Below are positions 12,591 through 28,099 of a stretch of DNA of 37,095 nucleotides, one piece after another. Within the stretch, counting starts at the first letter, position 1. Each line of letters starts with the position of its first letter. Where the stretch lies: positions 1 through 37,095 of the IMG/VR virus record IMGVR_UViG_3300035703_000223; one strand, written 5' to 3'. The notes under the pieces were generated by a model. The model was not told the DNA's origin, made no database searches, and worked only from the letters and a program-made list of their open reading frames with translations. A program made the position numbers and the translations under genes. The stretch comes from a virus.

Positions 12591-12890
12591 ATGAGCAAGC
12601 GACCTAGCGCCCATCAGCGCGGCTACACCAAGGACTGGTCAAGAGCGGCGCGATCCTTCCTAAAGGAAAACCCATTATGCTTGCATTGCCAGCGGCTAGG
12701 TAAACTTACCAGCGCTACACAGGTCGATCACATCAAGCCGTGGCGGGGGGATCGTAACCTGTTCTGGGAATACAGCAACTGGCAACCCCTATGCGCCAGC
12801 TGCCACAGCAAGAAGACTAACAGCCAAGACCGAGGCGATCTACTGAAAGGCACAGCAGCAGATGGTACACCTCTAGGGGGGTGGGTCTAG
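12591..12890 (+). CDS. HNH endonuclease
   Basis: A 99-residue HNH nuclease: CLHC (30-33), VDHIKP (45-50) with catalytic His47, NLFWEYSNWQPLCASCH (56-72) with Asn63 and the second Cys pair 68/71, then HSKKT. This is the short HNH type encoded next to terminase genes in HK97-like phages, where it works with terminase in cutting DNA at cos during packaging. Here it is separated from the small terminase gene by a G-rich spacer and an accessory module. It may alternatively act as a free homing-type nuclease, but the standard packaging role is favoured. Confidence 0.88.
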   Translation: MSKRPSAHQRGYTKDWSRAARSFLKENPLCLHCQRLGKLTSATQVDHIKPWRGDRNLFWEYSNWQPLCASCHSKKTNSQDRGDLLKGTAADGTPLGGWV

Positions 12891-13527
12891 TCTGTTAGCC
12901 GCCTGACCGAAACAGGGGGGGGGTGGTATCGCCAGAACCTAGGGGGGCATGAATACCGGGGGGCTAGGTAGGAAAATCTACCCCGGCAATTAAGTCGCAT
13001 CACCCATGACGGGAGCACCCAGCGAGGCTGACGCAGAACGCATAGCCTGACGCACACAGCGATACCTACGCCGAGCGCCAGCCTATAGGGGTCACTGGGT
13101 AGGCCATCCCTGCCGCCTACCCCACACCACCACCCGGCAGACCGGACGGCACTAGCGGCTCTCTCGCTACGCTAAACGAAACGAACGAAACAATCGCAAC
13201 CCTGACGCATTCAGAATATGGGGGGCGTATCAGATAGGGGGCGGGGTAGATTGAATGACCCCCCTACCGCATTAGCTCGCCTCTGGGCGGCTCCCTAGAA
13301 CGACCGCCACCTACGCGCACCTACCCCGATAGCCCGCCCTCGAGCGGCTAAATAATCGGCTCATCGCACCATTCTAGCGCGGCGGGGAATCTGCACTACG
13401 GTAGGGCATAGACCGATATAGGTCGCCATATAGGGACCGGCGGGGGCTCCACGTAAGAGCTAAATCGTAACATTCGGGCGAATTCAGCTTGACAAGATGC
13501 GGGGCATGAAGTGAAGTAAAGCCTCCC
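12891..13527. other. G-run-rich non-coding spacer, candidate cos/packaging or control region
   Basis: No convincing gene was found in these 637 bases. The plus strand has repeated runs of five to nine G, often as TAGGGGG or ATGGGGG (near 12913-12921, 12941-12946, 12957-12963, 13219-13224, 13235-13239), which could form G-quadruplexes. CTGACGCA occurs at 13028, 13047 (within CCTGACGCA) and 13202. A tandem ACGAA-type repeat lies at 13174-13191. TTGACA at 13489-13494 could be the -35 of a promoter for the ParB-like gene, but the -10 is poor. Being flanked by an HNH nuclease and, further on, terminase genes makes a packaging site plausible. Confidence 0.5.
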
Positions 13528-14154
13528 ATGAAGATCGAGCAAATTAAGGTTTCTGACCTCCTGCCGTACATAAACAATGCACGGCGACACCCAGAAGCCC
13601 AGATAGCCCAGCTAGCCGCAAGCATCAAGGAGTTCGGGTTTAACAACCCAATACTTATTGGCGATGACCTGACCATTATCGCGGGTCATGGCCGGTTCGA
13701 TGCGGCAAAGCGGTTAGGGCTGACAGAGGTTCCGTGCATAAAGGTGTCTCACCTGACGCCTACGCAGCGGAAGGCATACATACTGGCTGACAATAAGCTG
13801 GCGCTCAATGCTGAATGGGATATCGAGCTGCTGAACCTAGAGCTCGACCATCTGCAGGAGAACGGCTTTGACATCGAGTTCACCGGATTCACCGACACCG
13901 ACTTACAGAAAATTCGAGACGATCTTGACCAAGCCAGTCTGCTGCAAATGTCAGACGGTGCAGAGCAAGACAGCCCAGCCCAACCAAAAGAAAAAGACAG
14001 TGAGTTCTATCCACTGTCAGTGTTGGTTGAGCACGATCAACGCAACGATATCTTCGCTGCTATAAAAAAAGCGAAGGAGAAGCACTCGCTAGACAATAGC
14101 GGTGATGCGATATGGTCAATCTGTAAAGAATGGATGGCTGATGAAAGCATTTAG
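13528..14154 (+). CDS. ParB-like protein 1
   Basis: A 208-residue protein with an N-terminal ParB/Srx-fold domain: KVSDLLPYINNARRHPEAQI, then IKEFGFNNPILIGDDLTIIA, the catalytic-type loop GHGR at 53-56, RLGLTEVPCI and LTPTQRKAYILADNKLALNA. This is the version usually fused to phage DNA methyltransferases, but here a short helical C-terminus (DIFAAIKKAKEKHSLD, AIWSICKEW) replaces the methyltransferase. No SD precedes the ATG. It heads a four-gene module with a cupin, a PAPS-reductase-like protein and another ParB-like protein. The family includes nucleases and nucleotide-using enzymes; its reaction here is unknown. Confidence 0.8.
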   Translation: MKIEQIKVSDLLPYINNARRHPEAQIAQLAASIKEFGFNNPILIGDDLTIIAGHGRFDAAKRLGLTEVPCIKVSHLTPTQRKAYILADNKLALNAEWDIELLNLELDHLQENGFDIEFTGFTDTDLQKIRDDLDQASLLQMSDGAEQDSPAQPKEKDSEFYPLSVLVEHDQRNDIFAAIKKAKEKHSLDNSGDAIWSICKEWMADESI

Positions 14155-14845
14155 CGCGTATGAGTTTAAGACCGGCAAGATTGCCGACCTAGATAGAAAA
14201 TTCCCGTCGTATCTATCCGCATGGGATCAAGATACGCTGCACCTGAAAGAAGGTGACACGCACTACATCTATTGTCACGAAGGCGAGGCGTTCTTCAAGT
14301 ATCAAGAGCGCGGCTATACGCTGGTCGCTGGTATGTTCGCCTGTGTCCCGGGCGATACCGGCGTGAGCGGCGGTAAGGGAATCGTAGTGAGCCGTGAGGG
14401 CTGGGATGGTGTATTCCACCTAGGCGGCAAGATCGAGCGCCGTGGTCGATTGAAATACATCGATGGCTGCACCGATAGCTTGCTAGTTCCACCCGTCATG
14501 ATGGGTGATCCTTGCCTAAACTTGCTCTACTTCCCGCCTGATATTGACCAGACCGCGCACACTCACCCGAGTGATCGCATCGGTATGATTATGTCCGGTC
14601 GCGGTCTATGTCACGCATGGAATGATGGCGTAGAAGAGAAGATTGAGCTGCGTGCTGGATTAATCTTCTGCATCCACACCGATGGCGTGCATAAATTCTC
14701 GACGCCGTTTGGCGATGAGATGCGCGTTCTCGCATACCATCCAGATTCAGACTTCGGTCCTACGCACCAGACCCACCCGATGATCAATCGCACGATTGTG
14801 GATGGCGTCAGCGCTAGCCTCTTGCCTAGCATTCAGACCAAATGA
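14141..14845 (+). CDS. Cupin-fold protein
   Basis: A 234-residue protein starting at ATG 14141 inside the end of ParB-like 1 (14-base overlap). The C-terminal half has cupin motifs: DQTAHTHPSDRIGMIMSGRG with a paired-His metal site, RAGLIFCIHTDGVHKF, and FGDEMRVLAYHPDSDFGP. The N-terminal half looks like a second, degenerate beta barrel (YIYCHEGEAFFKYQERGYTL, VAGMFACVPGD), so it is likely a bicupin. Such proteins are metal enzymes or small-molecule binders. The ATGA-type overlap with the next gene suggests that it works with the PP-loop enzyme. Confidence 0.75.
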   Translation: MKAFSAYEFKTGKIADLDRKFPSYLSAWDQDTLHLKEGDTHYIYCHEGEAFFKYQERGYTLVAGMFACVPGDTGVSGGKGIVVSREGWDGVFHLGGKIERRGRLKYIDGCTDSLLVPPVMMGDPCLNLLYFPPDIDQTAHTHPSDRIGMIMSGRGLCHAWNDGVEEKIELRAGLIFCIHTDGVHKFSTPFGDEMRVLAYHPDSDFGPTHQTHPMINRTIVDGVSASLLPSIQTK

Positions 14846-16020
14846 GTCGAATCTACAAGAAGGCATTTGCAGAAGAATCCGTATATGAAGCCGCGCTCGG
14901 GCGGTTCCGTCAGTTATTTGACAACTTCGATAAGGTTGTCATCTCATTCTCTGGCGGCAAGGATTCGACCGTTTGCTTAAACCTTGGCCTACAGGTAGCT
15001 CGAGAAAAGGGAAAGCTCCCGCTAGACGTCTACTTCTGGGATGAAGAGGCCATACAACCGGAGACGGTAGCCTACGTAGAGCGAGTTCGCGCCATACCTG
15101 ATGTGCGACTCAAATGGTTATGCGTACCGATTCAGCACCGGAATGCGTGCTCGAGGTCGCAACCGTATTGGCATCCGTGGAACCCAGACGAAAAAGAGAA
15201 GTGGGTTCGTGATATGCCAGAGTACGCTATCACGGAAGTCAAAGGATTCTATTGGGGCGCTAGCGTTCCAGACATTGCCCACAAGGTCTACGGTCCAGAA
15301 TGCGGAACCGTGGCTGATGTGCGCGGCATCAGAGCTGATGAATCGTTGCGCCGCTACCGTAGCGTAGCGATGCGGACAAAAGACAATTGGATAGGTAGCG
15401 CAAGGGACAAATATAGCTACCCATGCAGCCCTATTTATGACTGGACTACGCTAGACGTATGGACAGCGCCTCGTATGTTCGGCTGGGATTACAACCGCTC
15501 ATACGACATTATGAGTATGCTCGGCATTGCGCCATCCGATCAGCGAGTGTGCCCTCCGTATGGTGAGGAGCCGCTAGGCGGGCTATGGATGTACGCGCAG
15601 GGATGGCCTGATCTCTGGCACAAAATGATTAACCGCGTACATGGCGCAGCGACCGCTGGCCGATACGCAAACACAGAACTCTATGGGTTCGGCAAACTGA
15701 CGCCGCCACCGGGGATGACATGGCGCGAGTGGACGTACTCGTTGCTTGAGCTATACCCGAAAGAGCTCAAAGCCAAGGTAGCTGCTAATCTCGCAGCCCT
15801 AATCGCACAACACAAGACCAAAACCAATCGCCCGATACATGAAACAGAGCCTGATCCGATGACCGGGCTAAACTGGAAATTTCTGGCGATGATTGCTAAC
15901 CGGGCTGACCTAAAAGATCGCAGAAAAGGTAATGTGACCACGGCAGCGAAAGCAGTACGCGATAAGCAGGGCTTAACCCTAGAGGACGTCACAGAAAGTG
16001 ATTTCGGCACTAGATACTGA
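14842..16020 (+). CDS. PAPS-reductase-like PP-loop protein (IbrA/YbdN-like)
   Basis: A 392-residue protein coupled to the cupin gene. SGGKDS at 37-42 is the PP-loop that binds ATP or adenylyl groups. Later segments DVYFWDEEAIQPET, GVRADE-like GIRADESLRRYRS, YSYPCSPIYDWTTLDVW and SDQRVCPPYGEEPLGGLW fit the PAPS reductase/DUF3440 group that includes E. coli YbdN and IbrA. These need not reduce PAPS. The pair IbrA/IbrB was described as regulating Eib surface proteins in E. coli. The following gene is IbrB-like, so the pair is conserved here. Activity could involve sulfur transfer or adenylylation, but it is unproven. Confidence 0.82.
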   Translation: MSRIYKKAFAEESVYEAALGRFRQLFDNFDKVVISFSGGKDSTVCLNLGLQVAREKGKLPLDVYFWDEEAIQPETVAYVERVRAIPDVRLKWLCVPIQHRNACSRSQPYWHPWNPDEKEKWVRDMPEYAITEVKGFYWGASVPDIAHKVYGPECGTVADVRGIRADESLRRYRSVAMRTKDNWIGSARDKYSYPCSPIYDWTTLDVWTAPRMFGWDYNRSYDIMSMLGIAPSDQRVCPPYGEEPLGGLWMYAQGWPDLWHKMINRVHGAATAGRYANTELYGFGKLTPPPGMTWREWTYSLLELYPKELKAKVAANLAALIAQHKTKTNRPIHETEPDPMTGLNWKFLAMIANRADLKDRRKGNVTTAAKAVRDKQGLTLEDVTESDFGTRY

Positions 16021-16534
16021 CGGCAAGATTGCCGCACAACCTGTAAGCAAGGTTAAATGGGTAGATAGAACCACCCTCAAGCCTAATGATTACAACCCAA
16101 ATAAAGTAGCTCCACCAGAGCTAGAGCTGCTGATTATCTCCATCCTAGAGGATGGATGGACGCAGCCTATAGTGACCCTTGAAGATGGAACCATCGTAGA
16201 TGGCTTCCACCGTTACACGGTGAGCGCTGATAAGCGATTGCAGCAGCGCTTCGGGAACATGGTTCCCACAGTACAGGTCGCTATTGATCCGGTTCACCGG
16301 AAAATGTCTACCATTAGACACAACCGTGCTCGAGGTACTCACGGCATCCTGCCTATGGCAAAGATTGTCCAGAGCATCATTGAGGAAGGCCATTCAAAGG
16401 AAGAAATCCAAGTCCGGTTGGGCATGGAGAACGAAGAAGTAGATCGTCTGCTAGATCGCTCCGGTATGCCTAATAAGGCAGCAGTCAAGACTGACGGATT
16501 CGGCAAGTCTTGGAAGCCGGTCGATAAAGCCTAG
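15998..16534 (+). CDS. ParB-like protein 2 (IbrB/YbdM-like)
   Basis: A 178-residue protein from GTG 15998 with an AGAGGA site, overlapping the upstream gene by 23 bases. It has LKPNDYNPNKVAPPELELL, ISILEDGWTQPIVTL, the loop DGFHRYTV (GFHR 69-72), IRHNRARGTHG (107-116) and a C-terminal HTH-like IQVRLGMENEEVDRLLDRSG. This matches IbrB/YbdM, the partner of IbrA/YbdN. The two are commonly adjacent in phages and genomic islands. DNA or nucleotide binding is likely; the reaction is not known. Confidence 0.82.
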   Translation: MISALDTDGKIAAQPVSKVKWVDRTTLKPNDYNPNKVAPPELELLIISILEDGWTQPIVTLEDGTIVDGFHRYTVSADKRLQQRFGNMVPTVQVAIDPVHRKMSTIRHNRARGTHGILPMAKIVQSIIEEGHSKEEIQVRLGMENEEVDRLLDRSGMPNKAAVKTDGFGKSWKPVDKA

Positions 16535-16572: not shown

Positions 16573-17010
16573 ATGCAGCAGCGAGGACGCAAGTCACAAG
16601 CAGCACTGGAAACTGAAAACGTCATTCCCGGTAACTTTGGGCAACGCCCAGAGCCGCCAGCGGAATTGATGGAGGAAGAGGCTGCTATCTGGCGCGAGAC
16701 TGCCGCTAGCGAGGCAGCAGACTTTTTCAATACTTCCGCGCTGCGTAATTTATTGAAGGACTATTGTCGCCATCGAGCAGCGGCAGACAAGATCACCGAG
16801 GTGATCAATCTGTTCCAGACCGAGTGGTTGAAAAGCGAGACTGGCTCAAAGCGCTACTCGCAGCTGCTAAAGATGCGTGACCTCGAGGCGCGTGGCGCTG
16901 CTGACAAAGCAACGAAGCTGCGACTGACTAACCAAGCACGCTATACGCCACAGGCAGCAGCTACCGCATCTCGAAATGCGGCGAAAGGGTTTAAGCCTTG
17001 GGAGCTGTGA
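16573..17010 (+). CDS. terS: Terminase small subunit (P27-like)
   Basis: A 145-residue protein directly before the large terminase. It contains RGRKSQAALE, PPAELMEEEAAIWRE, FFNTSALRNLLKDYCRHRAA, LKMRDLEARGAADKATKLRL and SRNAAKGFKPWEL, matching the P27 family of small terminases, which recognise packaging sites and regulate the large subunit's motor. Length is typical. The ATG follows an AGAGG site. Its end overlaps the large-subunit gene. Confidence 0.85.
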   Translation: MQQRGRKSQAALETENVIPGNFGQRPEPPAELMEEEAAIWRETAASEAADFFNTSALRNLLKDYCRHRAAADKITEVINLFQTEWLKSETGSKRYSQLLKMRDLEARGAADKATKLRLTNQARYTPQAAATASRNAAKGFKPWEL

Positions 17011-18527
17011 GGAAGAAGGAGCGGCAATCAGACCGCTGCATTCGATGGATTGAGACTTACTGCAGAGTGCCAGAAGGCAAACTGGTAGGTCAGCCCGTCA
17101 AGATGCGCGAGTGGCAGAAAAAGATTCTGCGAAACATTTATGACTCGCCTACTCGCCGCGCCATCATCTCGTTCCCTAGAAAGAACGGCAAGACAGCATT
17201 AAGCGCATTTTTGCTGCTACTGCATCTGTGCGGTCCAAAGGCTAGACCAAATTCGCAACTATTTAGCGCAGCGCAGAGCCGTGAACAGGCAGCGATTTTG
17301 TTTTCGCTAGCCGCTAAAACGGTGCGTATGTCACCGGATTTAATCGCGGTGGTGGCTATACGCGATACGGCGAAGCAATTATTTTGCGGCGAGCTAGGCA
17401 CGCTATATCGTGCGCTATCGGCAGAAGCCTCTACCAGCTACGGCTTGTCACCTGTTTTTGTGGTGCATGACGAGCTAGGACAGGTTAGAGGTCCGCGCAG
17501 CGAGCTTTATGAGTCGCTCGAAACGGCAGCTGGCGCACAGGAAGAGCCGCTTTCGATCATTATCAGTACGCAAGCGCCTACCGATAGTGACTTGCTATCG
17601 GTTCTGATTGATGACGCCAAGACGGGCAGCGATCCTAGGGTCAAGCTCGCGCTATTCACAGCAGATGAATCAGCCGATCCGTTTGCAGAGGATACGATCA
17701 AGAATGCTAACCCTGCCTACGGTGATTTCCTAAATGCCGTAGAGGTGAGGGATCAGGCAGAGTCGGCTCGGCGTATGCCAGCACGCGAAGCGGCGTATAG
17801 GAACCTAGTGCTCAATCAGCGAGTCAATAGCTCGACGCCGTTCATTAGCCGCACGGCATGGGAGGCGTGCGCTGGCGAGATCGACGAGGCAGCATTCCAG
17901 AATCCGTGTTTCATCGGCCTCGATCTTTCGGCGCGTAATGACTTGACCGCGCTGGTCATGGTTGGCTGTGACGCAGATGGTATATGGCATACCAAGTGCG
18001 ATTTCTTCGTGCCAGAGATAGGCATTGATGAAAGATCGCGCAGAGACAGAACGCCATACGATCTCTGGAAGCAGCAGGGGCATCTGATAGCTACACCGGG
18101 CGCGTCTATTGACTATGCCTATGTCGCACAACGACTGTGTGAGCTAGCAGATGATTACCCGATACAAGAGATTGCTTTTGACCGCTGGCGAATAGATGTG
18201 CTGCAATCCGAATTGCGTAGACTGGGGCGAGAGCTCCCGTTAGTGCCATTCGGTCAAGGATTTAAGGATATGACGCCCGCGCTAGATGCTGTCGAGCACG
18301 CGATCATGGCTAAAAAATTGCGGCACGGTGGGCATCCTGTCTTGCGTATGTGCGCGGCTAATGCCGTGGTGACGCGAGACCCCGCAGGGAATCGTAAACT
18401 GGACAAAGCGAAGGCGACCGGCAGAATCGATGGGATGGTTGCACTGGCGATGGCGCTAGGTACAGCCGCTCGAGGCACTGACGAAGGTGGCTTTAACGAC
18501 TTTCTATCTAACGTGGTGAGTGTGTAA
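16998..18527 (+). CDS. terL: Terminase large subunit
   Basis: A 509-residue packaging motor and nuclease. TTG 16998 opens the frame; GTG 17007, overlapping the terS stop, is an equally possible start. Features: an atypical Walker A RKNGKT at 61-66, Walker B VVHDE at 155-159, a coupling-like SIIISTQAP segment, and the nuclease domain beginning CFIGLDLSARNDL with acidic Asp309, later AFDRWRIDVLQSEL. It belongs to the HK97/phage terminase_1 type, which pairs with P27 small subunits. It translocates DNA into the prohead and cuts genome ends. Confidence 0.95.
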   Translation: MGAVRKKERQSDRCIRWIETYCRVPEGKLVGQPVKMREWQKKILRNIYDSPTRRAIISFPRKNGKTALSAFLLLLHLCGPKARPNSQLFSAAQSREQAAILFSLAAKTVRMSPDLIAVVAIRDTAKQLFCGELGTLYRALSAEASTSYGLSPVFVVHDELGQVRGPRSELYESLETAAGAQEEPLSIIISTQAPTDSDLLSVLIDDAKTGSDPRVKLALFTADESADPFAEDTIKNANPAYGDFLNAVEVRDQAESARRMPAREAAYRNLVLNQRVNSSTPFISRTAWEACAGEIDEAAFQNPCFIGLDLSARNDLTALVMVGCDADGIWHTKCDFFVPEIGIDERSRRDRTPYDLWKQQGHLIATPGASIDYAYVAQRLCELADDYPIQEIAFDRWRIDVLQSELRRLGRELPLVPFGQGFKDMTPALDAVEHAIMAKKLRHGGHPVLRMCAANAVVTRDPAGNRKLDKAKATGRIDGMVALAMALGTAARGTDEGGFNDFLSNVVSV

Positions 18528-22001: not shown

Positions 22002-22436
22002 ATGTTTAGAGTAGAAGCAAAAGTCCCATTTTGGTGTAGCGTGACTGGCGGTCGTATTCCGTTCGAGCGCTTTTCTACCGATAGGGATACGGCTTACCGA
22101 TTGCAAAAGGTCGGACTTGTCGAGATCATCGACGAGAAATGGAATTTAGAGACGAAAGACGGACAGCCGTCATCATCGCTAGCGGACCATCGGCAGCAGA
22201 AGCCGATCTATCCTTACTCGAAGGCTGGCCGGTCATCGCGGTCAACGATTGCTGGAGACTCTACCCAGCAGACGTCCTCTACGCTTGCGACGAACAATGG
22301 TGGAACCGATACCACAGAGAAACCGAAATTTTCCGTGGTCAGCGGTGGACGCAGAGCAGGGAGGCCGCGAAAAGGTACGGCCTCCACCACATCGAAGGGC
22401 AGCACGGATCAGGATTTTCCACCCGACGCGGCCTAA
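22002..22436 (+). CDS. Small protein overlapping the next gene, possible head protein
   Basis: A 144-residue frame starting six bases after the hairpin. Residues 1-50 look like a folded domain (MFRVEAKVPFWCSVTGGRIP, TAYRLQKVGLVEII). The rest is Ser/Thr/Gly/Lys-rich, probably disordered, and ends GRRAGRPRKGTASTT, an AT-hook-like basic patch. From 22139 on it is overlapped for 298 bases by a well-supported gene in another frame. No SD is seen. The first part fills an otherwise empty gap and looks real; the tail is either a true overprinted region or a run-on. Confidence 0.5.
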   Translation: MFRVEAKVPFWCSVTGGRIPFERFSTDRDTAYRLQKVGLVEIIDEKWNLETKDGQPSSSLADHRQQKPIYPYSKAGRSSRSTIAGDSTQQTSSTLATNNGGTDTTEKPKFSVVSGGRRAGRPRKGTASTTSKGSTDQDFPPDAA

Positions 22437-22723
22437 TTAAATACAACTGGAATTCTGGCGCACAGGCAATGCAGCTAGGCTGGCAGCTAGGCGCTAGGCG
22501 ATTTGTGCTCATCGGTTTTGATATGCAGCCCGTAGATGGCAAGGTGCATTGGTTCGGCGATCACCCGCGCGGCTTGATCAATGAATCGCCGTGGCAGATG
22601 TTCATATCCGCATTTGAAGTGATCGCCAAGGATTGCCAAGAGCTAGGCATCGAGGTGATCAATACGAGTCGCATATCAAAGCTGACTTGCTTCCCTAAAG
22701 CCTCGCTAACAGAGGCGCTATGA
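22139..22723 (+). CDS. ASGPS-motif protein, putative sugar/nucleotide-sugar enzyme
   Basis: A 194-residue protein. TAVIIASGPSAAEADLSLLE (9-28) and VIAVNDCWRLYPADVLYACD are the Rossmann-like opening seen in DUF115/MAF-like proteins and related phage enzymes, in which the GPS loop probably binds a nucleotide or nucleotide sugar. Later, ARRFVLIGFDMQPVDGKVHW and CQELGIEVINTSRISKL complete the fold. It opens the sugar cassette behind the capsid gene and overlaps the next gene (ATGA). DUF115-type proteins are linked to flagellin or surface glycosylation. The substrate here is unknown. Confidence 0.75.
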   Translation: MEFRDERRTAVIIASGPSAAEADLSLLEGWPVIAVNDCWRLYPADVLYACDEQWWNRYHRETEIFRGQRWTQSREAAKRYGLHHIEGQHGSGFSTRRGLIKYNWNSGAQAMQLGWQLGARRFVLIGFDMQPVDGKVHWFGDHPRGLINESPWQMFISAFEVIAKDCQELGIEVINTSRISKLTCFPKASLTEAL

Positions 22724-23484
22724 GAGCCTTTGTCCTCATACGCCATGATCCGCTATACCGTAGAGCATCCTTCGAGCAGGGCTTACGGGCTGTAGGCTAT
22801 GAGATACACGGCATACCTAGGAACACGATAAAACCTAGCGATGTGCTGGTAATCTGGAATCGCTACGGCGAGGGCGCTATCTATGCTGATCGCTTCGAGG
22901 CAGCTGGCGCTAGAGTCCTAGTTGCAGAGAATGGATACCTAGGGCGCGATTGGCGCGGCGAGCACTGGTATGCGCTGGCCGCTAACTATCACAACGGCGC
23001 TGGCAGTTGGCCTCGAGGAGGGGCAGAGCGCTGGAATGATTGGCGCGTGCCAATGGCTGAATGGCGAACGGGTGGCAATGAAATAGTGATCCTCGCTACC
23101 CGTAGCATCGGTCCTGTAGGCGTAGCGGAGCCGCATGGATGGTGCGGTCAACAGTACGATTCGCTGCGGCGTATGACGGACAGGCCTGTTAGAATTCGAG
23201 AGCACCCCGGCGAGAGGCCATGCGTAAGTTTAGAGCATGACCTACGCGATGCGTATGCGGTGCTCACTTGGGGTTCCGGTGCAGCGCTAAAAGCTCTGTT
23301 GATGGGCATTCCGGTTTTTTATGGATTCAAAAATTGGATTGGCGCTGGTGCTGGTCGAGTCTGGGATGGCAACCTAGAGCCCGCTAGACCGTGCCGCCTA
23401 AATACATTTCAGACATTGGCGTGGTCCATGTGGAACACCCGAGAAATAGCTACCGGGGAGCCCTTCGCTCGGCTTCTGGCGTGA
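22720..23484 (+). CDS. GT-B-like glycosyltransferase paralogue A
   Basis: A 254-residue protein, first of three tandem paralogues. The N-terminal half has IKPSDVLVIWNRYGEGAIYA and GARVLVAENGYLGRD. The C-terminal half has VRIREHPGE, LEHDLRDAYAVLTWGSGAAL and KALLMGIPVFYGFKN (184-203), a pattern like the donor-binding end of capsule-type (KpsC/KpsS-like) and other GT-B enzymes: a Ser/Gly-rich loop followed by a helix and G-x-P. It is the most divergent of the three. Sugar donor and acceptor are unknown. It overlaps both neighbours by four bases. Confidence 0.68.
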   Translation: MRAFVLIRHDPLYRRASFEQGLRAVGYEIHGIPRNTIKPSDVLVIWNRYGEGAIYADRFEAAGARVLVAENGYLGRDWRGEHWYALAANYHNGAGSWPRGGAERWNDWRVPMAEWRTGGNEIVILATRSIGPVGVAEPHGWCGQQYDSLRRMTDRPVRIREHPGERPCVSLEHDLRDAYAVLTWGSGAALKALLMGIPVFYGFKNWIGAGAGRVWDGNLEPARPCRLNTFQTLAWSMWNTREIATGEPFARLLA

Positions 23485-24320
23485 AGGTAGTTATCTACGA
23501 GCAGCGCTCGCACGTTAGAAGCAAGATGATCTGCGATGCGATGCAGCTCGGCATCAGCCGGTGCGGGGATTTTGTTGTTCGCACCTATGCGGATCAATTC
23601 AAATCAGCTGGCGATGAGTGGGCTGTGTTCTACGGCCTAGACGGAAAGTTAAAAGAGATATTCGACACCTACTCAAAACTAGGTCGCGCGGTCTATGTAG
23701 ACCTAGGCTATTGGGGAAGGACGCAGGGCGGTAAGCTGGCTGGCTTTCATAAGATCGTGCTGAACGGTCGCCACCCAGAGGGCTATTATCGGCGCGGCTA
23801 CCCTAGCGATAGGTTCGCAGCGCATAACGTAGCGATCCAGCCGTGGCGCTCTGGCGGCACGCACATCTTGATCGCTGGCATGAGCGATAAGGCGGCGTTC
23901 TACGCAGGGTTTAAGGCCGAGGAGTGGGAGCGCGAGACTATAGCTAAACTACAGGCCGTCACCACCCGGCCTATCGTCTACCGGCCTAAACCTAGCTGGA
24001 AGGGCGCGAGGCCTATACACGGCGTGCAATACTCCGAGCCAGCCGTACCGCTAGAGCTAGCGATAAAGCACGCATGGGCGGTGGTCACGCACCACAGCAA
24101 CGTGGCGGTCGATGCTATCCTCGCTGGCGTACCGGCCTTCTGCTGGCACGGCGTAGCGCGAGAGATGAGCAGCCAAGATATAGGGCAAATTGAGCACCCA
24201 TTTAGACCCGAAGGCAGACTGGAGTGGGCATCGGATATAGCCTATACCCAATGGTCTGTCGTAGAGATCGCGCACGGCCTTCCGTGGGCGCATTTCAAAC
24301 GAGAGGGGCTGGTAGGGTGA
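23481..24320 (+). CDS. GT-B-like glycosyltransferase paralogue B
   Basis: A 279-residue protein. The start chosen is GTG 23481, overlapping the previous stop (GTGA); the frame is open further upstream but would overlap paralogue A by 90 bases. It contains AVYVDLGYWGR (70-80), IVYRPKPSW (165-173), KHAWAVVTHHSNVAVDAILA (196-215) and GVPAFCW, then QWSVVEIAHGLPWAHFK. It aligns with paralogue C almost without gaps; the YRPKPSW and AWA-VTH motifs fall at the same residue numbers. Likely a glycosyltransferase in the same pathway as its neighbours. Confidence 0.7.
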   Translation: MKVVIYEQRSHVRSKMICDAMQLGISRCGDFVVRTYADQFKSAGDEWAVFYGLDGKLKEIFDTYSKLGRAVYVDLGYWGRTQGGKLAGFHKIVLNGRHPEGYYRRGYPSDRFAAHNVAIQPWRSGGTHILIAGMSDKAAFYAGFKAEEWERETIAKLQAVTTRPIVYRPKPSWKGARPIHGVQYSEPAVPLELAIKHAWAVVTHHSNVAVDAILAGVPAFCWHGVAREMSSQDIGQIEHPFRPEGRLEWASDIAYTQWSVVEIAHGLPWAHFKREGLVG

Positions 24321-25168
24321 GGGTGGTTTTCTACTACGCCGAGAAGCCGCGAGAGCGCATTTTACAGGGTGCGTTCGCGGAGGGCGTGAAGGTACACGGC
24401 GATGAGTTCGAGGCGCGGCTACTCTCGCAGGGGGTAGTGGACTGCGATGTGGCCGTGATGGTCGGCGTGAAGAGCAGGGAGCTATTCCAGACTCACTGGA
24501 AGGCTGGCACGCATACCGTACTGCTGGACAAGGGCTACCACAGGGCTACCTACCCCGGCGGGGCTAGGGGCTGGATTTACTGGCGCGTGGCGGTCAATGC
24601 TCACCAGTGTACCGCCTACCTATCGCAGAACAGACCGAGCGATAGAGCCAAGAAGATAGGCTGGCACGTTCAGCGCTGGCGCAAGAATGGGAGCCACATC
24701 CTATTTGGCGGCAGCAGTCAGAAATATCACGAATTTGTTGACGCTGGCGATCCGACAGAGTTCGCCAAAAAGACGATCAGACGCATAGCTAAATTTAGCT
24801 CACGCGAGATTATCTATCGTCCGAAGCCTAGTTGGGATGGCGCTGTACCCGTAGAAGGCGCGACCTTGCGCGATGAGTTCGTGCCGCTAGCGCATGACCT
24901 CGAGGGCGCATGGGCTACCGTCACGCATGGTTCTAGCATCTGCCTCGAATCTATCTTGTGCGGCGTGCCGGTGGTCGTGCTAGGCGATGCGGTAGCAAAA
25001 CCGATCAGCTCTACCGACCTGTTAGAGATAGAATCGCCGCGACTGGCAAGCGAGGATGAGGTGAGCCAATGGCTAGCCAATCTCGCCTATCAGCAATGGA
25101 CGCTAGCGGAATTCGCCAGCGGTGAGGCATGGGGAAACATTAAGTCGGTGATATATGGCGCGTATTAG
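24317..25168 (+). CDS. GT-B-like glycosyltransferase paralogue C
   Basis: A 283-residue protein starting at GTG 24317, overlapping paralogue B (GTGA). Motifs: HTVLLDKGYHRATYPGGARG, NRPSDRAKKIGW, IIYRPKPSW (165-173), GAWATVTHGSSICLESILCG (197-216), VPVVVLGDAVAKPISSTDLL and YQQWTLAEFASGEAW. The THGSS loop, helix and CGVP turn are those of polysaccharide-type GT-B enzymes. It is very close to B in length and motif spacing. Overlaps the FAD oxidoreductase gene by 14 bases. Confidence 0.7.
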   Translation: MRVVFYYAEKPRERILQGAFAEGVKVHGDEFEARLLSQGVVDCDVAVMVGVKSRELFQTHWKAGTHTVLLDKGYHRATYPGGARGWIYWRVAVNAHQCTAYLSQNRPSDRAKKIGWHVQRWRKNGSHILFGGSSQKYHEFVDAGDPTEFAKKTIRRIAKFSSREIIYRPKPSWDGAVPVEGATLRDEFVPLAHDLEGAWATVTHGSSICLESILCGVPVVVLGDAVAKPISSTDLLEIESPRLASEDEVSQWLANLAYQQWTLAEFASGEAWGNIKSVIYGAY

Positions 25169-26141
25169 GGTTCTCGGTGGCGGCTGGTATGGCTGTCATA
25201 TAGCAAAGACGCTATCCGAGGAAGGCTATCAAGTAGAGCTACATGAGAGAGCGCCGCGATTATTCTCTGGTGCATCTGGCGGCAATCCCGCTCGATTGCA
25301 TCTAGGGTTTCACTACCCGCGATCACGACTAACCCGAGCAGCTAGCCAAGAACACTATCTAGCGTTCATGGAGCAGTACGGGCATCTGACTCGCGCAGTG
25401 CCGATCAATCTCTACTGCATAGCCGCGCATGACTCGTTGCTGGACTTCGGTACATATAGGCAAGTCTTACAGGGTGAGCTTGAATTTGTGACCGTGCATG
25501 AGCCATCAGATTTTGGCCTGACCAATATTGAGGGTGCGCTACTGACGGGCGAGCGGCATATCGTTATTAACGCCGCGCGTGACTATTACGAGAAAGAGCT
25601 TGCCTCTCTGGTGCGCTATCAGACGCCGCCAGAGGAGCGCGATGATTTCGACTGGACGATTGACTGCACATTCTGTGCTAGAGATAACGCAGCGATTGAT
25701 CGCTATGAGCCGTGCTTAACGGTTCTGCTGGAAGGTCCAACGGATAAAGCCATCACGATTATGGATGGTCCATTCCCGTCGATCTATCCGTGGAATGAGG
25801 AAATGGGCTTATCTAGCCTAACTAGTGCGAGTCTCACGCCATTCTCAAAATCTCTGAAAACGCACGAAGAGGCTACAGCGGTTCTTAATTCGCAGACTGT
25901 AGATAGTATCCGCGAGCGCTGTCAGGCGATGGTGCAGCAGATCGCGCACTTCTACCCTGCCGTCCTCGAGGAGTACCGGGTTGCGGATTACAAGCTGACG
26001 ATACGCGCACAGCCTCGATCTGGTTCTGACGCTCGGCTGGTCGATATTGTACAGACCGCTCCGCGCGTTCTGCGTATCCGCGCTGGCAAGATTGACGCGA
26101 TACTGCACGCACGCGAAATGCTGAAGGAATGGCTACCGTGA
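25155..26141 (+). CDS. FAD-dependent oxidoreductase of polysaccharide-locus type
   Basis: A 328-residue protein with the dinucleotide-binding start IRVLGGGWYGCHIAKTLSEE (4-23) and the family signature SGASGGNPARLHLGFHYPRS (38-57), known from DAO-like FAD oxidoreductases encoded in bacterial capsule and LPS clusters. Later, INLYCIAAHDSLLDF, DWTIDCTF, MDGPFPSIYPW and VQTAPRVLRIRAGKIDAIL correspond to substrate-domain strands and the final FAD-contact region. It probably oxidises or rearranges a sugar or amino sugar. It lies between three GT-like genes and an SDR gene, which supports a glycan pathway. Confidence 0.82.
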   Translation: MARIRVLGGGWYGCHIAKTLSEEGYQVELHERAPRLFSGASGGNPARLHLGFHYPRSRLTRAASQEHYLAFMEQYGHLTRAVPINLYCIAAHDSLLDFGTYRQVLQGELEFVTVHEPSDFGLTNIEGALLTGERHIVINAARDYYEKELASLVRYQTPPEERDDFDWTIDCTFCARDNAAIDRYEPCLTVLLEGPTDKAITIMDGPFPSIYPWNEEMGLSSLTSASLTPFSKSLKTHEEATAVLNSQTVDSIRERCQAMVQQIAHFYPAVLEEYRVADYKLTIRAQPRSGSDARLVDIVQTAPRVLRIRAGKIDAILHAREMLKEWLP

Positions 26142-26680
26142 TAGCGGTGACGGGTAGACGGACTACGATTGTTGAAGAGCTAGGTGTGTATGAGCCCATC
26201 GAGAGAATCGAGGAGCACTATCTACCTAGCACGGACAAGTTTGTTCTAGCTGCTGGCGTTCTGATCGGTAAGAAGATAGCCGACATGAGTACGCTAGAGG
26301 CTTATGACACGGTTTTCGTCAATCTAATCTCGACGATGAGAACCTGTGAGCGCATTCTGTCTCTTGTACCTAATGCGCGTATCTGCATAATCGGTAGTTG
26401 CTCTGGGATCAAAGGCAGTTACGATCAGTTGTATGGGGCGAGCAAGGCGGGCATACATCACTACGTTAAAACCCGCAAAGTACTCGACGCCCAACAACTG
26501 ATCGCTGTCTCTCCGTGCATCATCTCTGATTCTGGTATGACGCGCCGCCGTAGCGATTACGATGACGTCATCGAGAATCGAGATACCGTTACTGCAAAAC
26601 AGGTAGCTGATGTGGTCTATGGACTACTGACGATGAGCCCCGCTGTATCTAATCAGATCGTGCCGGTTGGTCCGTGCTGA
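26129..26680 (+). CDS. Short SDR-family oxidoreductase
   Basis: A 183-residue protein. ATG 26129 opens it, but GTG 26138, overlapping the previous stop (GTGA) with GAAGGA nine bases before, may be the true start. SDR features: IAVTGR at the N-terminus in place of the full TGxxxGxG, CIIGSCSG with catalytic Ser, and the active-site LYGASKAG with Tyr102 and Lys106, then ISDSGMTRR. It is shorter than usual SDRs (about 250) with a reduced cofactor loop. It probably works with the FAD enzyme on the same sugar. Confidence 0.78.
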   Translation: MATVIAVTGRRTTIVEELGVYEPIERIEEHYLPSTDKFVLAAGVLIGKKIADMSTLEAYDTVFVNLISTMRTCERILSLVPNARICIIGSCSGIKGSYDQLYGASKAGIHHYVKTRKVLDAQQLIAVSPCIISDSGMTRRRSDYDDVIENRDTVTAKQVADVVYGLLTMSPAVSNQIVPVGPC

Positions 26681-27414
26681 CCGTCTGTACGGGCTGGAGC
26701 CCTAAAGGGTGGGTAGAGTACGGCGAGGCATTCGTACATAGCGCTGCGCGTCATTGGTCTAGCGATATTAGATTGCTAGCCTATGTCGAGGAGCTTATCG
26801 AATTACCGATAGGCGAATGCCGGTCTGTCTTACAGATACCGGGCTGCGTAGAATTTATTGACAAGTACCGCGACGATAAGCGGGCTAATGGGCGAGATGT
26901 ACAATCTAACTGGAAAGAGGCTGCGAAGAAGCGCGGCTATCATTTCCGTTGGGATGCGTGGAAATTCTGTCGGCAGGGATTCATACCGCTAGCCGCAGCG
27001 CAAGAATGCGAGACAGAATACCTAGCGTGGTTCGATGCTGATGTGGTGACGTTCGCAGACGTTAGTGCGGAGGACATTACCAGCCTGTTGCCTAGCGGAT
27101 ACGATGTGGCCTATCTCGGTAGACCTAAATGGTCAGAGATCGGTTTTCAGTTATACCGATTGCCAGCTGCGCTACCGATGCTAGAGCAATTCTCTCGATA
27201 CTACAGAGATGAGACGGTATTTGATCTGCACGAATGGCATTCTGCCTATGTGTTCGATCGCGCACGCGAGGCGACTGGCATAGCTGGCTGGAATCTCACG
27301 CCTAACCGTGAAGGCGATGTGTGGCCGTATACGCCGCTCTCTAAATTTAGCGTACATCTGAAAGGTGATAGGAAAGGCAATGCAAAACGTCTTGCGGGTC
27401 TACATAGGATTTGA
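26674..27414 (+). CDS. GT-A-type glycosyltransferase
   Basis: A 246-residue protein starting at GTG 26674. It has a Rossmann-like beginning (MLTVCTGWSPKGWVEYGEAF), a FRWDAWKFCRQGFIPLAAA helix region, TEYLAWFDADVVTF with the DAD metal/nucleotide-sugar motif at 121-123, YDVAYLGRPKWSEIGFQLYR and FDLHEWHSAYVFDRAR. This is the layout of small GT-A enzymes of phage and capsule origin. It would transfer a sugar from a nucleotide donor with a divalent metal. It overlaps the next GT gene by 35 bases. Confidence 0.8.
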   Translation: MLTVCTGWSPKGWVEYGEAFVHSAARHWSSDIRLLAYVEELIELPIGECRSVLQIPGCVEFIDKYRDDKRANGRDVQSNWKEAAKKRGYHFRWDAWKFCRQGFIPLAAAQECETEYLAWFDADVVTFADVSAEDITSLLPSGYDVAYLGRPKWSEIGFQLYRLPAALPMLEQFSRYYRDETVFDLHEWHSAYVFDRAREATGIAGWNLTPNREGDVWPYTPLSKFSVHLKGDRKGNAKRLAGLHRI

Positions 27415-28099
27415 TTCACGCGAGACCATTGCCTACGAGGTAGCAGAGAAGTCGCTCCTCGAGTACGCCAGCACGCCTGTGATGGTAACGCCTCTGTTAC
27501 TAGAGCGATTACAGGCGAGTGGGTTATCGCAGCGTCCGTATCGAGTCTATCGAGGCGGGGTCTGGGATGTTATTTCAGATGCGCCTGTATCGACTGAATT
27601 TGCAAACACTCGATTCCTAGTTCCTCTGCTAGCGCAGACTGGCTGGGCGTTATTTACTGACTGCGATGTAGTGTTCCTATCAGATGTGGCCGAGCTATTC
27701 GCTATGGCCGATCCGCGCTATGCGGTGATGTGCGTGAAGCATAATCACCAGCCGGTAGAGACAGAGAAAATGGATGGCTGCGTACAGACGAGCTATCCGC
27801 GCAAGAATTGGTCGAGTGTGGTTCTATTTAACTGTGACCACGAAGCTAATCGAGCACTCACGCTGCATCGCATTAACAATGCGCCCGGTAGAGAGCTGCA
27901 TCGGTTCTACTGGTTGCAGGATCATGAGATCGGCGAATTGCCGCTCGAATGGAATTGGCTCGTCGGTGTTCAGCCTAAACCGTTGAATCCCAAAATTGCA
28001 CATTTCACACTAGGGGGACCGTGGCTCCCCGAATGGAAGGCAGCAGAACATGATCAACTCTGGTTGGACTGTAAAGGTCGTCACACCCGCGCCGGTTGA
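27380..28099 (+). CDS. GT8-like glycosyltransferase
   Basis: A 239-residue protein starting at ATG 27380 with an AGGAAAGG site; an earlier GTG at 27365 is less likely. It begins VYIGFDSRETIAYEVAEKSL, then ISDAPVSTEFANTRFLVPLL, GWALFTDCDVVFLSDVAELF with the DxD motif DCD at 94-96, KNWSSVVLFNCDHEAN, LQDHEIGELPLEWNWLVG and AHFTLGGPWLPEW. This matches a GT8/GT24-like family common in phages and surface-polysaccharide loci. It is the last gene of the sugar cassette and overlaps the connector gene by 50 bases, tying the cassette to virion genes. Confidence 0.85.
   Translation: MQNVLRVYIGFDSRETIAYEVAEKSLLEYASTPVMVTPLLLERLQASGLSQRPYRVYRGGVWDVISDAPVSTEFANTRFLVPLLAQTGWALFTDCDVVFLSDVAELFAMADPRYAVMCVKHNHQPVETEKMDGCVQTSYPRKNWSSVVLFNCDHEANRALTLHRINNAPGRELHRFYWLQDHEIGELPLEWNWLVGVQPKPLNPKIAHFTLGGPWLPEWKAAEHDQLWLDCKGRHTRAG

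Follow-up and report, generated by a model that had tools for sequence, protein, structure and literature searches.

A conserved four-gene extension of the IbrA/IbrB pair ahead of phage terminase genes

Background

The gene pair IbrA/IbrB (YbdN/YbdM) has been described in regulatory terms: in phages the two are annotated as prophage co-activators of gene expression (PMC4490671, PMC5874904), and in E. coli YbdNM is a CitR-repressed operon near citrate genes (PMC9068703). ParB-fold ATPases such as DpdB and DndB are known from DNA modification or conflict systems (PMC12839542, PMC10853773), and viral cysH is reported as a sulfur-cycling auxiliary gene (PMC9301287). Here we describe a locus in an IMG/VR virus record (IMGVR_UViG_3300035703_000223, 37,095 bases, all of which we refer to as the window) in which an IbrA/IbrB-like pair is joined by a second ParB-fold gene and by a gene for a two-domain cupin, or bicupin. 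This quartet is a real and conserved extension of the IbrA/IbrB pair and, as far as we searched, an unreported one: no description of it, or of the exchange between cupin and transporter genes presented below, was found in the literature searched, mostly without subscription journals, so one may exist.

Results and Discussion

Four overlapping genes

The module consists of four intact open reading frames (ORFs):

13528..14154, plus strand: ParB1, a ParB/sulfiredoxin fold with an extra C-terminal segment (Pfam ParB_N 2.7e-7; phrog_620 4.5e-57)
14141..14845, plus strand: bicupin, a two-domain cupin with a three-histidine site (PF07883 Cupin_2 1.6e-8)
14842..16020, plus strand: PP-loop protein of IbrA/YbdN type, a PAPS_reduct-like domain plus DUF3440, with the motif SFSGGKDS (phrog_2302 6e-86)
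15998..16534, plus strand: ParB2, IbrB/YbdM-like, with a GTG start and the motif DGFHR (phrog_2159 2.3e-63)

The bicupin start is best set at the ATG at 14141, the position that lines up with where its homologue in another IMG/VR contig, L001, begins. Successive genes overlap, by 14 nucleotides (nt) between ParB1 and bicupin, 4 nt between bicupin and PP-loop gene and up to 23 nt between PP-loop gene and ParB2, which suggests translational coupling within one operon. The quartet recurs in L001 with its gene order unchanged, at 49, 62, 73 and 75% identity. The original prediction, made from the letters of the window alone, had named four coupled genes, two of ParB fold, a bicupin and a PP-loop enzyme, the last two resembling IbrA/IbrB. 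Each of these assignments stands, through Pfam and PHROG matches for the gene identities, a fold model for the bicupin, and DUF3440, phrog_2302 and phrog_2159 for the likeness to IbrA/IbrB.

Conservation of the quartet and exchange of one gene

An IMG/VR search with an alignment of four cupins yielded 251 cupin-encoding stretches; in these scans the best 80 stretches per query were analysed, with ORFs called mechanically. The PP-loop protein, ParB1 and ParB2 accompany the bicupin in 34/34 loci with full flanks, all from uncultured viruses, so that co-occurrence in related phages, which had been named beforehand as a test of the prediction, is borne out. This sample was chosen through the cupin; a second survey used the PP-loop protein as query instead. 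Both ParB genes were again present in all 24 complete loci of what we call the quartet clade, and the remaining position, or slot, held the bicupin in 15, a sodium:solute symporter (SSF) in four, a TctC/Bug solute-binding protein in two, an unrelated one-domain cupin in two and a second PP-loop gene alone in one. Complete loci of the classical IbrA type from the same scans (n = 18) never carry ParB1 but always carry ParB2, with a GNAT-like gene in five. The quartet recurs in many unrelated uncultured phages, and its grouping is far beyond chance. Gene order varies, including ParB1-cupin-PAPS-ParB2, ParB1-PAPS-ParB2-cupin and forms with a doubled ParB1, and the retention of content despite this reordering argues for a functional link beyond shared descent alone.

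A quick maximum-likelihood tree of 109 viral PP-loop proteins divides them, with support of 100, into groups of 81 and 28 rows. The 81-row quartet clade has bicupin in 64 slots, one-domain cupin in six, SSF in five, second PP-loop in three, TctC in two and none in one, although this set, like a larger one of 144 rows, mixes cupin and PP-loop scans and over-represents the bicupin, for which the 24-locus count is fairer. The 28-row classical IbrA clade has an empty slot in 22 cases, GNAT in five and EctC in one, with neither ParB1 nor bicupin. Along the tree ParB1 presence changes twice and slot type 19 times, against 42 in shuffles, and the quartet-clade proteins fall outside the clade of IbrA proteins from isolate phages.

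No locus combines the bicupin with a transporter or binding protein (0/44 versus 4/7 across 51 complete loci; Fisher p = 1.4e-4). Pfam confirms the slot and accessory genes: TctC at 9.9e-35, SSF at 7.3e-21, the one-domain cupins, second PP-loop proteins (PF01507, 1e-7 to 1e-13), the class-II glutaminase domain GATase_6 (1e-8 to 1e-10), the aldehyde dehydrogenase Aldedh (4.8e-104) and GNAT (2.7e-7); a putative symporter fragment upstream in locus L189 was not confirmed by Pfam. The nearest solved relative of the SSF symporter is the urea symporter DUR3 (1.2e-19, over the first 200 residues), whereas the preferred NCBIfam matches are to pantothenate/proline symporters and fall far short of the cut-off; with these indications in disagreement, a guess at the substrate from the symporter was dropped. 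The conserved quartet with its interchangeable small-molecule genes accords with the earlier suggestion of a larger enzymatic system.

The PP-loop protein

The PP-loop protein exceeds the Pfam cut-offs for PF01507 PAPS_reduct (4.2e-12; 46.9 bits, cut-off 22.5) and for PF11922 DUF3440 (1.6e-15; 57.7 bits, cut-off 25), the latter being the domain of IbrA (DUF3440/COG3969). Its AlphaFold2 model, with a predicted local distance difference test score (pLDDT) of 93.4, lies nearest to FAD synthase (FMN adenylyltransferase), to reductases of adenosine phosphosulfate (APS) and phosphoadenosine phosphosulfate (PAPS), and to CysD, nearly tied at Z scores of 13-16; the C-terminal half of the model is hardly covered by these matches. 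In PAPS reductases (CysH) the catalytic cysteine sits in the C-terminal tail. In an alignment of 93 sequences of the viral protein only C94 is conserved above 90%, with C103 at 75% and C237 at 62%, and as no cysteine past residue 103 exceeds 65% there is no conserved tail cysteine, which makes an adenylylating or activating role likelier than reduction.

This bears on the possibility that the gene is a viral cysH which boosts sulfate assimilation. The fold and the Pfam similarity to PAPS reductase would fit, and reports of cysH as an auxiliary metabolic gene of viruses are widespread (PMC9301287), but in addition to the tail that lacks a conserved cysteine, the NCBIfam matches of the protein are far below their cut-offs and its neighbours are ParBs, cupins and transporters, with no sulfur genes among them. 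We consider this explanation highly improbable, and set it aside on the absent tail cysteine and the neighbouring genes. Phosphorothioation was also rejected, since the protein reaches 17.6 bits where the DndC model (TIGR03183) requires 290, and partner genes were not seen.

The bicupin

Membership of the cupin superfamily is clear from the above-cut-off Cupin_2 match, an invariant histidine triad of the metal-binding type and the fold model (AlphaFold2, pLDDT 94.3). Among solved structures the closest folds are those of DUF861/ureidoglycine aminohydrolase (Z 18-19) and BacB (Z 17); many other bicupins follow so closely that the fold alone does not single out a reaction. Across 49 aligned sequences H140, H142 and H184 are invariant, as are C110, C125 and C157, and where the first cupin motif normally has an acidic residue (Glu) the family has an invariant arginine, R146. 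A fold search of BFVD gave poor matches only (template modelling scores of 0.3-0.4), and three different queries found no member of the family in 50,697 GenBank phage records, an absence that holds for that collection only.

Related neighbourhoods

In the Pseudoalteromonas phage XCL1123 (L150 3501-5762) a cupin of the EctC ectoine-synthase type (PF06339, 1.7e-35) lies between IbrA-like and ParB genes, and in a human-gut phage contig the genes for SSF, a second PP-loop protein, ParB1 and the PP-loop protein stand in a row. In cells, two Verrucomicrobiota genomes (L003 87-3468; L145 5007-8935) carry the bicupin with a zinc-ribbon membrane-like protein and an asparagine synthase-type enzyme, the last named in the second genome by sequence reading, and such neighbours of the cellular bicupin point to PP-loop plus class-II glutaminase chemistry. 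In Paraburkholderia the bicupin stands beside a methyltransferase-like gene, also named by sequence reading. On Vibrio plasmids (L233 4968-8338; L234 4968-9864) a DUF3440-ParB pair precedes a gene for an aromatic amino-acid transporter and, in one case, also one for tryptophanase. The theme that recurs across these neighbourhoods is small-molecule supply together with PP-loop or glutaminase chemistry.

Two further additions were observed. In L034 (6692-7192) and L035 (4967-5422) a small cysteine-rich protein with a CGFRCC motif, for which Pfam gave no match, is encoded between the bicupin and a second PP-loop gene. In L066 (2777-3913) a ParB-fold domain fused to DUF4417 lies directly downstream of a quartet.

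A possible system for metabolite activation and conjugation

Taken together, these observations suggest, with a probability that we put at about 0.42, that the quartet is a phage system for the ATP-driven activation and conjugation of a small metabolite, working with ParB-fold partners. The bicupin would make or reshape one small metabolite using a bound metal, and the DUF3440 PP-loop protein would spend ATP to activate a substrate, presumably by adenylylation, thereby allowing attachment of the metabolite to that substrate. As nucleotide-binding and probably DNA-contacting partners, the ParB-fold proteins would choose the target, the final acceptor perhaps being a nucleic acid or nucleotide. 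In relatives, import by an SSF symporter or a TctC/Bug solute-binding protein would replace the cupin step, cupin and transporters serving one metabolite, and some relatives may extend the chemistry with another PP-loop protein together with a class-II glutaminase. This proposal draws on the mutual exclusion of bicupin and transporter, the retained content of the quartet, a PP-loop fold near FAD synthase and CysD, the EctC cupin of XCL1123, the asparagine synthase beside cellular bicupins, the Vibrio transporter neighbours, and the position of the module 0.3-2.7 kb before the gene for the terminase large subunit (TerL), seen in 62 loci that span four terminase types.

Several points weigh against it. 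Loci from the cupin scans were chosen by cupin, transporter cases are few (4/51 complete loci), and the transporter genes could be unrelated cargo, although their exclusivity with the cupin argues against this. No membrane partners for the TctC protein are encoded in the module, DpdB, a ParB-like ATPase of DNA modification, offers no more than a precedent (PMC12839542), and the palindrome content of the window, described below, speaks mildly against genome-wide DNA modification.

In a bolder and unlikely form of the same idea, the quartet would represent a widespread, undescribed conjugation system in which the PP-loop enzyme and two ParBs, shortly before packaging, attach to DNA or nucleotides an interchangeable metabolite supplied by cupin, symporter or binding protein. 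In that case many so-called viral cysH sulfur genes would be members of the quartet or of the related IbrAB pair.

The ParB-fold proteins

ParB1 scores above the Pfam ParB_N cut-off (31 bits against 26.3) and is present in the quartet clade but in no complete classical IbrA locus. ParB2, of the IbrB type (phrog_2159), adjoins the DUF3440 gene with an overlapping start; it falls below the cut-off (14.6 bits against 26.3, E = 0.034), but its profile matches ParB/Noc structures at E-values of 1e-4 and weaker, with alignment extending past the N-terminal domain. No ParA was noticed among the module neighbours, no search aimed at ParA having been made.

The reach of this alignment is consistent with a different function, a ligand-dependent transcription switch in which ParB2 and the PP-loop protein would turn genes on in response to a ligand governed by the cupin or transporter, and proximity to terminase would reflect late-gene or lysogeny control. 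The co-activator annotation of IbrA/IbrB, the CitR repression of ybdNM and the amino-acid transport genes adjoining Vibrio DUF3440-ParB pairs all lean the same way. However, a pure switch has no need of a conserved PP-loop ATPase, a metal-type bicupin or the occasional glutaminases, and Pfam detects no helix-turn-helix family in ParB2. A transcription switch had been among the alternatives of the original prediction; the evidence does not specifically favour it, and we judge it unlikely, though a serious rival to the metabolite system.

Position ahead of terminase and DNA modification

The genes that flank the module in the window are as follows:

16573..17010, plus strand: TerS, terminase small subunit, the first gene past the module (phrog_12559 1.2e-30)
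16998..18527, plus strand: TerL, HK97/HK022-like (TerL_nuclease 1.3e-31; 59.6% to PAJU2, 49.5% to HK022)
12591..12890, plus strand: HNH endonuclease, the upstream neighbour, outside the module (PF01844 4.7e-12)

ParB2 is separated from TerS by 38 nt, and TerL is next. In the 62 loci mentioned above, which come from the first three scans and in which distance was taken from the end of ParB2 to the start of TerL, the TerLs form four sequence groups, whose representatives match the GpA-type, HK97-type, T4-type and Terminase_3 Pfam families. The predicted place ahead of packaging genes therefore holds well beyond the window; this may be a matter of function or of a site that cargo genes favour.

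A conserved position ahead of four terminase types would also fit a module that hypermodifies DNA or deoxynucleotides, putting a metabolite on phage bases before packaging so that a swap in the slot changes the chemical group and escapes restriction. The precedent of DpdB and a DNA methyltransferase within the module of locus L057 (phrog_757, 5.8e-57) are in line with this. Broad modification of DNA should relax the avoidance of palindromic restriction sites, but the window contains 288 6-mer palindromes where 629 are expected, a ratio of 0.46 that amounts to strong avoidance, and the median for bicupin loci (0.75) equals that of phages with the plain IbrAB pair (0.77). The avoidance in the window is stronger than in segments of lambda (0.69), T4 (0.97), 9g (0.77) and SPO1 (0.76), although the statistic is weak, because the modified phages 9g and SPO1 are poorly separated from unmodified ones, and is uninformative on sparse or site-specific marking. 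Furthermore, DpdA and enzymes resembling the hydroxymethylases of deoxyuridine monophosphate were not recognised near the loci, and the extra PP-loop protein has no detectable similarity to the Gat-QueC-type protein of phage 9g. Hypermodification seems unlikely, though it too is a serious rival. As to the suggestion that DNA is marked before packaging, the position stands, but DNA as the target, and marking itself, do not follow from it, and the ratio of 0.46 mildly opposes a genome-wide form.

Counter-defence was also part of the original prediction; in this or in an inter-phage defence role, the module would alter or consume a host metabolite or nucleotide signal, disabling immunity or excluding other phages. 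Its patchy occurrence in many diverse phages is compatible with this, as is the fact that ParB/Srx (sulfiredoxin) proteins of conflict systems are nucleoside triphosphatases or nucleases (PMC10853773, PMC12839542). However, PADLOC has no model for the set of PP-loop protein, cupin and ParB2, finding only weak similarity to BrxP, DndC and SspD, and no tie to any particular defence emerged; we think this role improbable.

Other features of the window

Directly upstream of the quartet some 640 bases (12891-13527) lack a long plus-strand gene; they are rich in G-runs, with a few weak short repeats, and are possibly a regulatory region or packaging-related site. An Rfam search of the window gave no match. 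A run of eight ORFs (22139-28099) separates the major capsid gene from the head-tail adaptor genes and looks like a sugar-decoration cassette within the head operon: it includes an FAD-dependent oxidoreductase (DAO, 4.5e-8) and a short-chain dehydrogenase (1e-8), and has weak matches to glycosyltransferases as well.

Significance and comparison with known systems

Genes of the cysH 'PAPS reductase' type are often reported as viral auxiliary metabolic genes and usually taken as sulfur cycling; DUF3440 proteins share the Pfam domain and PHROG name with them, and are here placed in a defined module. IbrA/IbrB, so far a poorly explained regulatory pair, gains a testable biochemical context. The swap between an enzyme-like cupin and a nutrient transporter is unusual in a phage operon, and focuses the search on a small metabolite common to both.

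In the quartet, as in IbrA/IbrB, a DUF3440 PP-loop gene (phrog_2302) overlaps one of ParB fold (phrog_2159), but the PP-loop proteins of the quartet form a separate, fully supported clade, and the quartet adds ParB1 and a cupin or transporter, absent from classical loci (0/23 complete). With CysH and the ATP sulfurylase CysD the PP-loop protein shares its fold (Z 13-15), from which it differs in adding DUF3440 and in lacking both a conserved C-terminal cysteine and sulfur-pathway neighbours. The bicupin has the two-domain fold of DUF861/ureidoglycine aminohydrolase and BacB (Z 17-19 at 11-14% identity) but no sequence-level match to them, with arginine in place of the metal-site glutamate and three invariant cysteines of its own. 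Dnd/Ssp systems (DndC with the ParB-like DndB) also encode a PP-loop enzyme with a ParB-fold protein, but no desulfurase, DndD or DndE was seen with the quartet and the DndC model failed. The Dpd and phage 7-deazaguanine systems (DpdB; 9g Gat-QueC) have a ParB-fold ATPase, class-II glutaminase and PP-loop themes in common with it, but no DpdA resembling tRNA-guanine transglycosylase and no queuosine genes were recognised near the module. An archaeosine route like that of Gat-QueC in phage 9g was likewise rejected, as the glutaminase part matches at E = 0.027 only and the PP-loop part shows no detectable similarity to that of 9g gp06. Overall, the quartet extends the IbrA/IbrB pair by a second ParB-fold protein and an interchangeable small-molecule gene.

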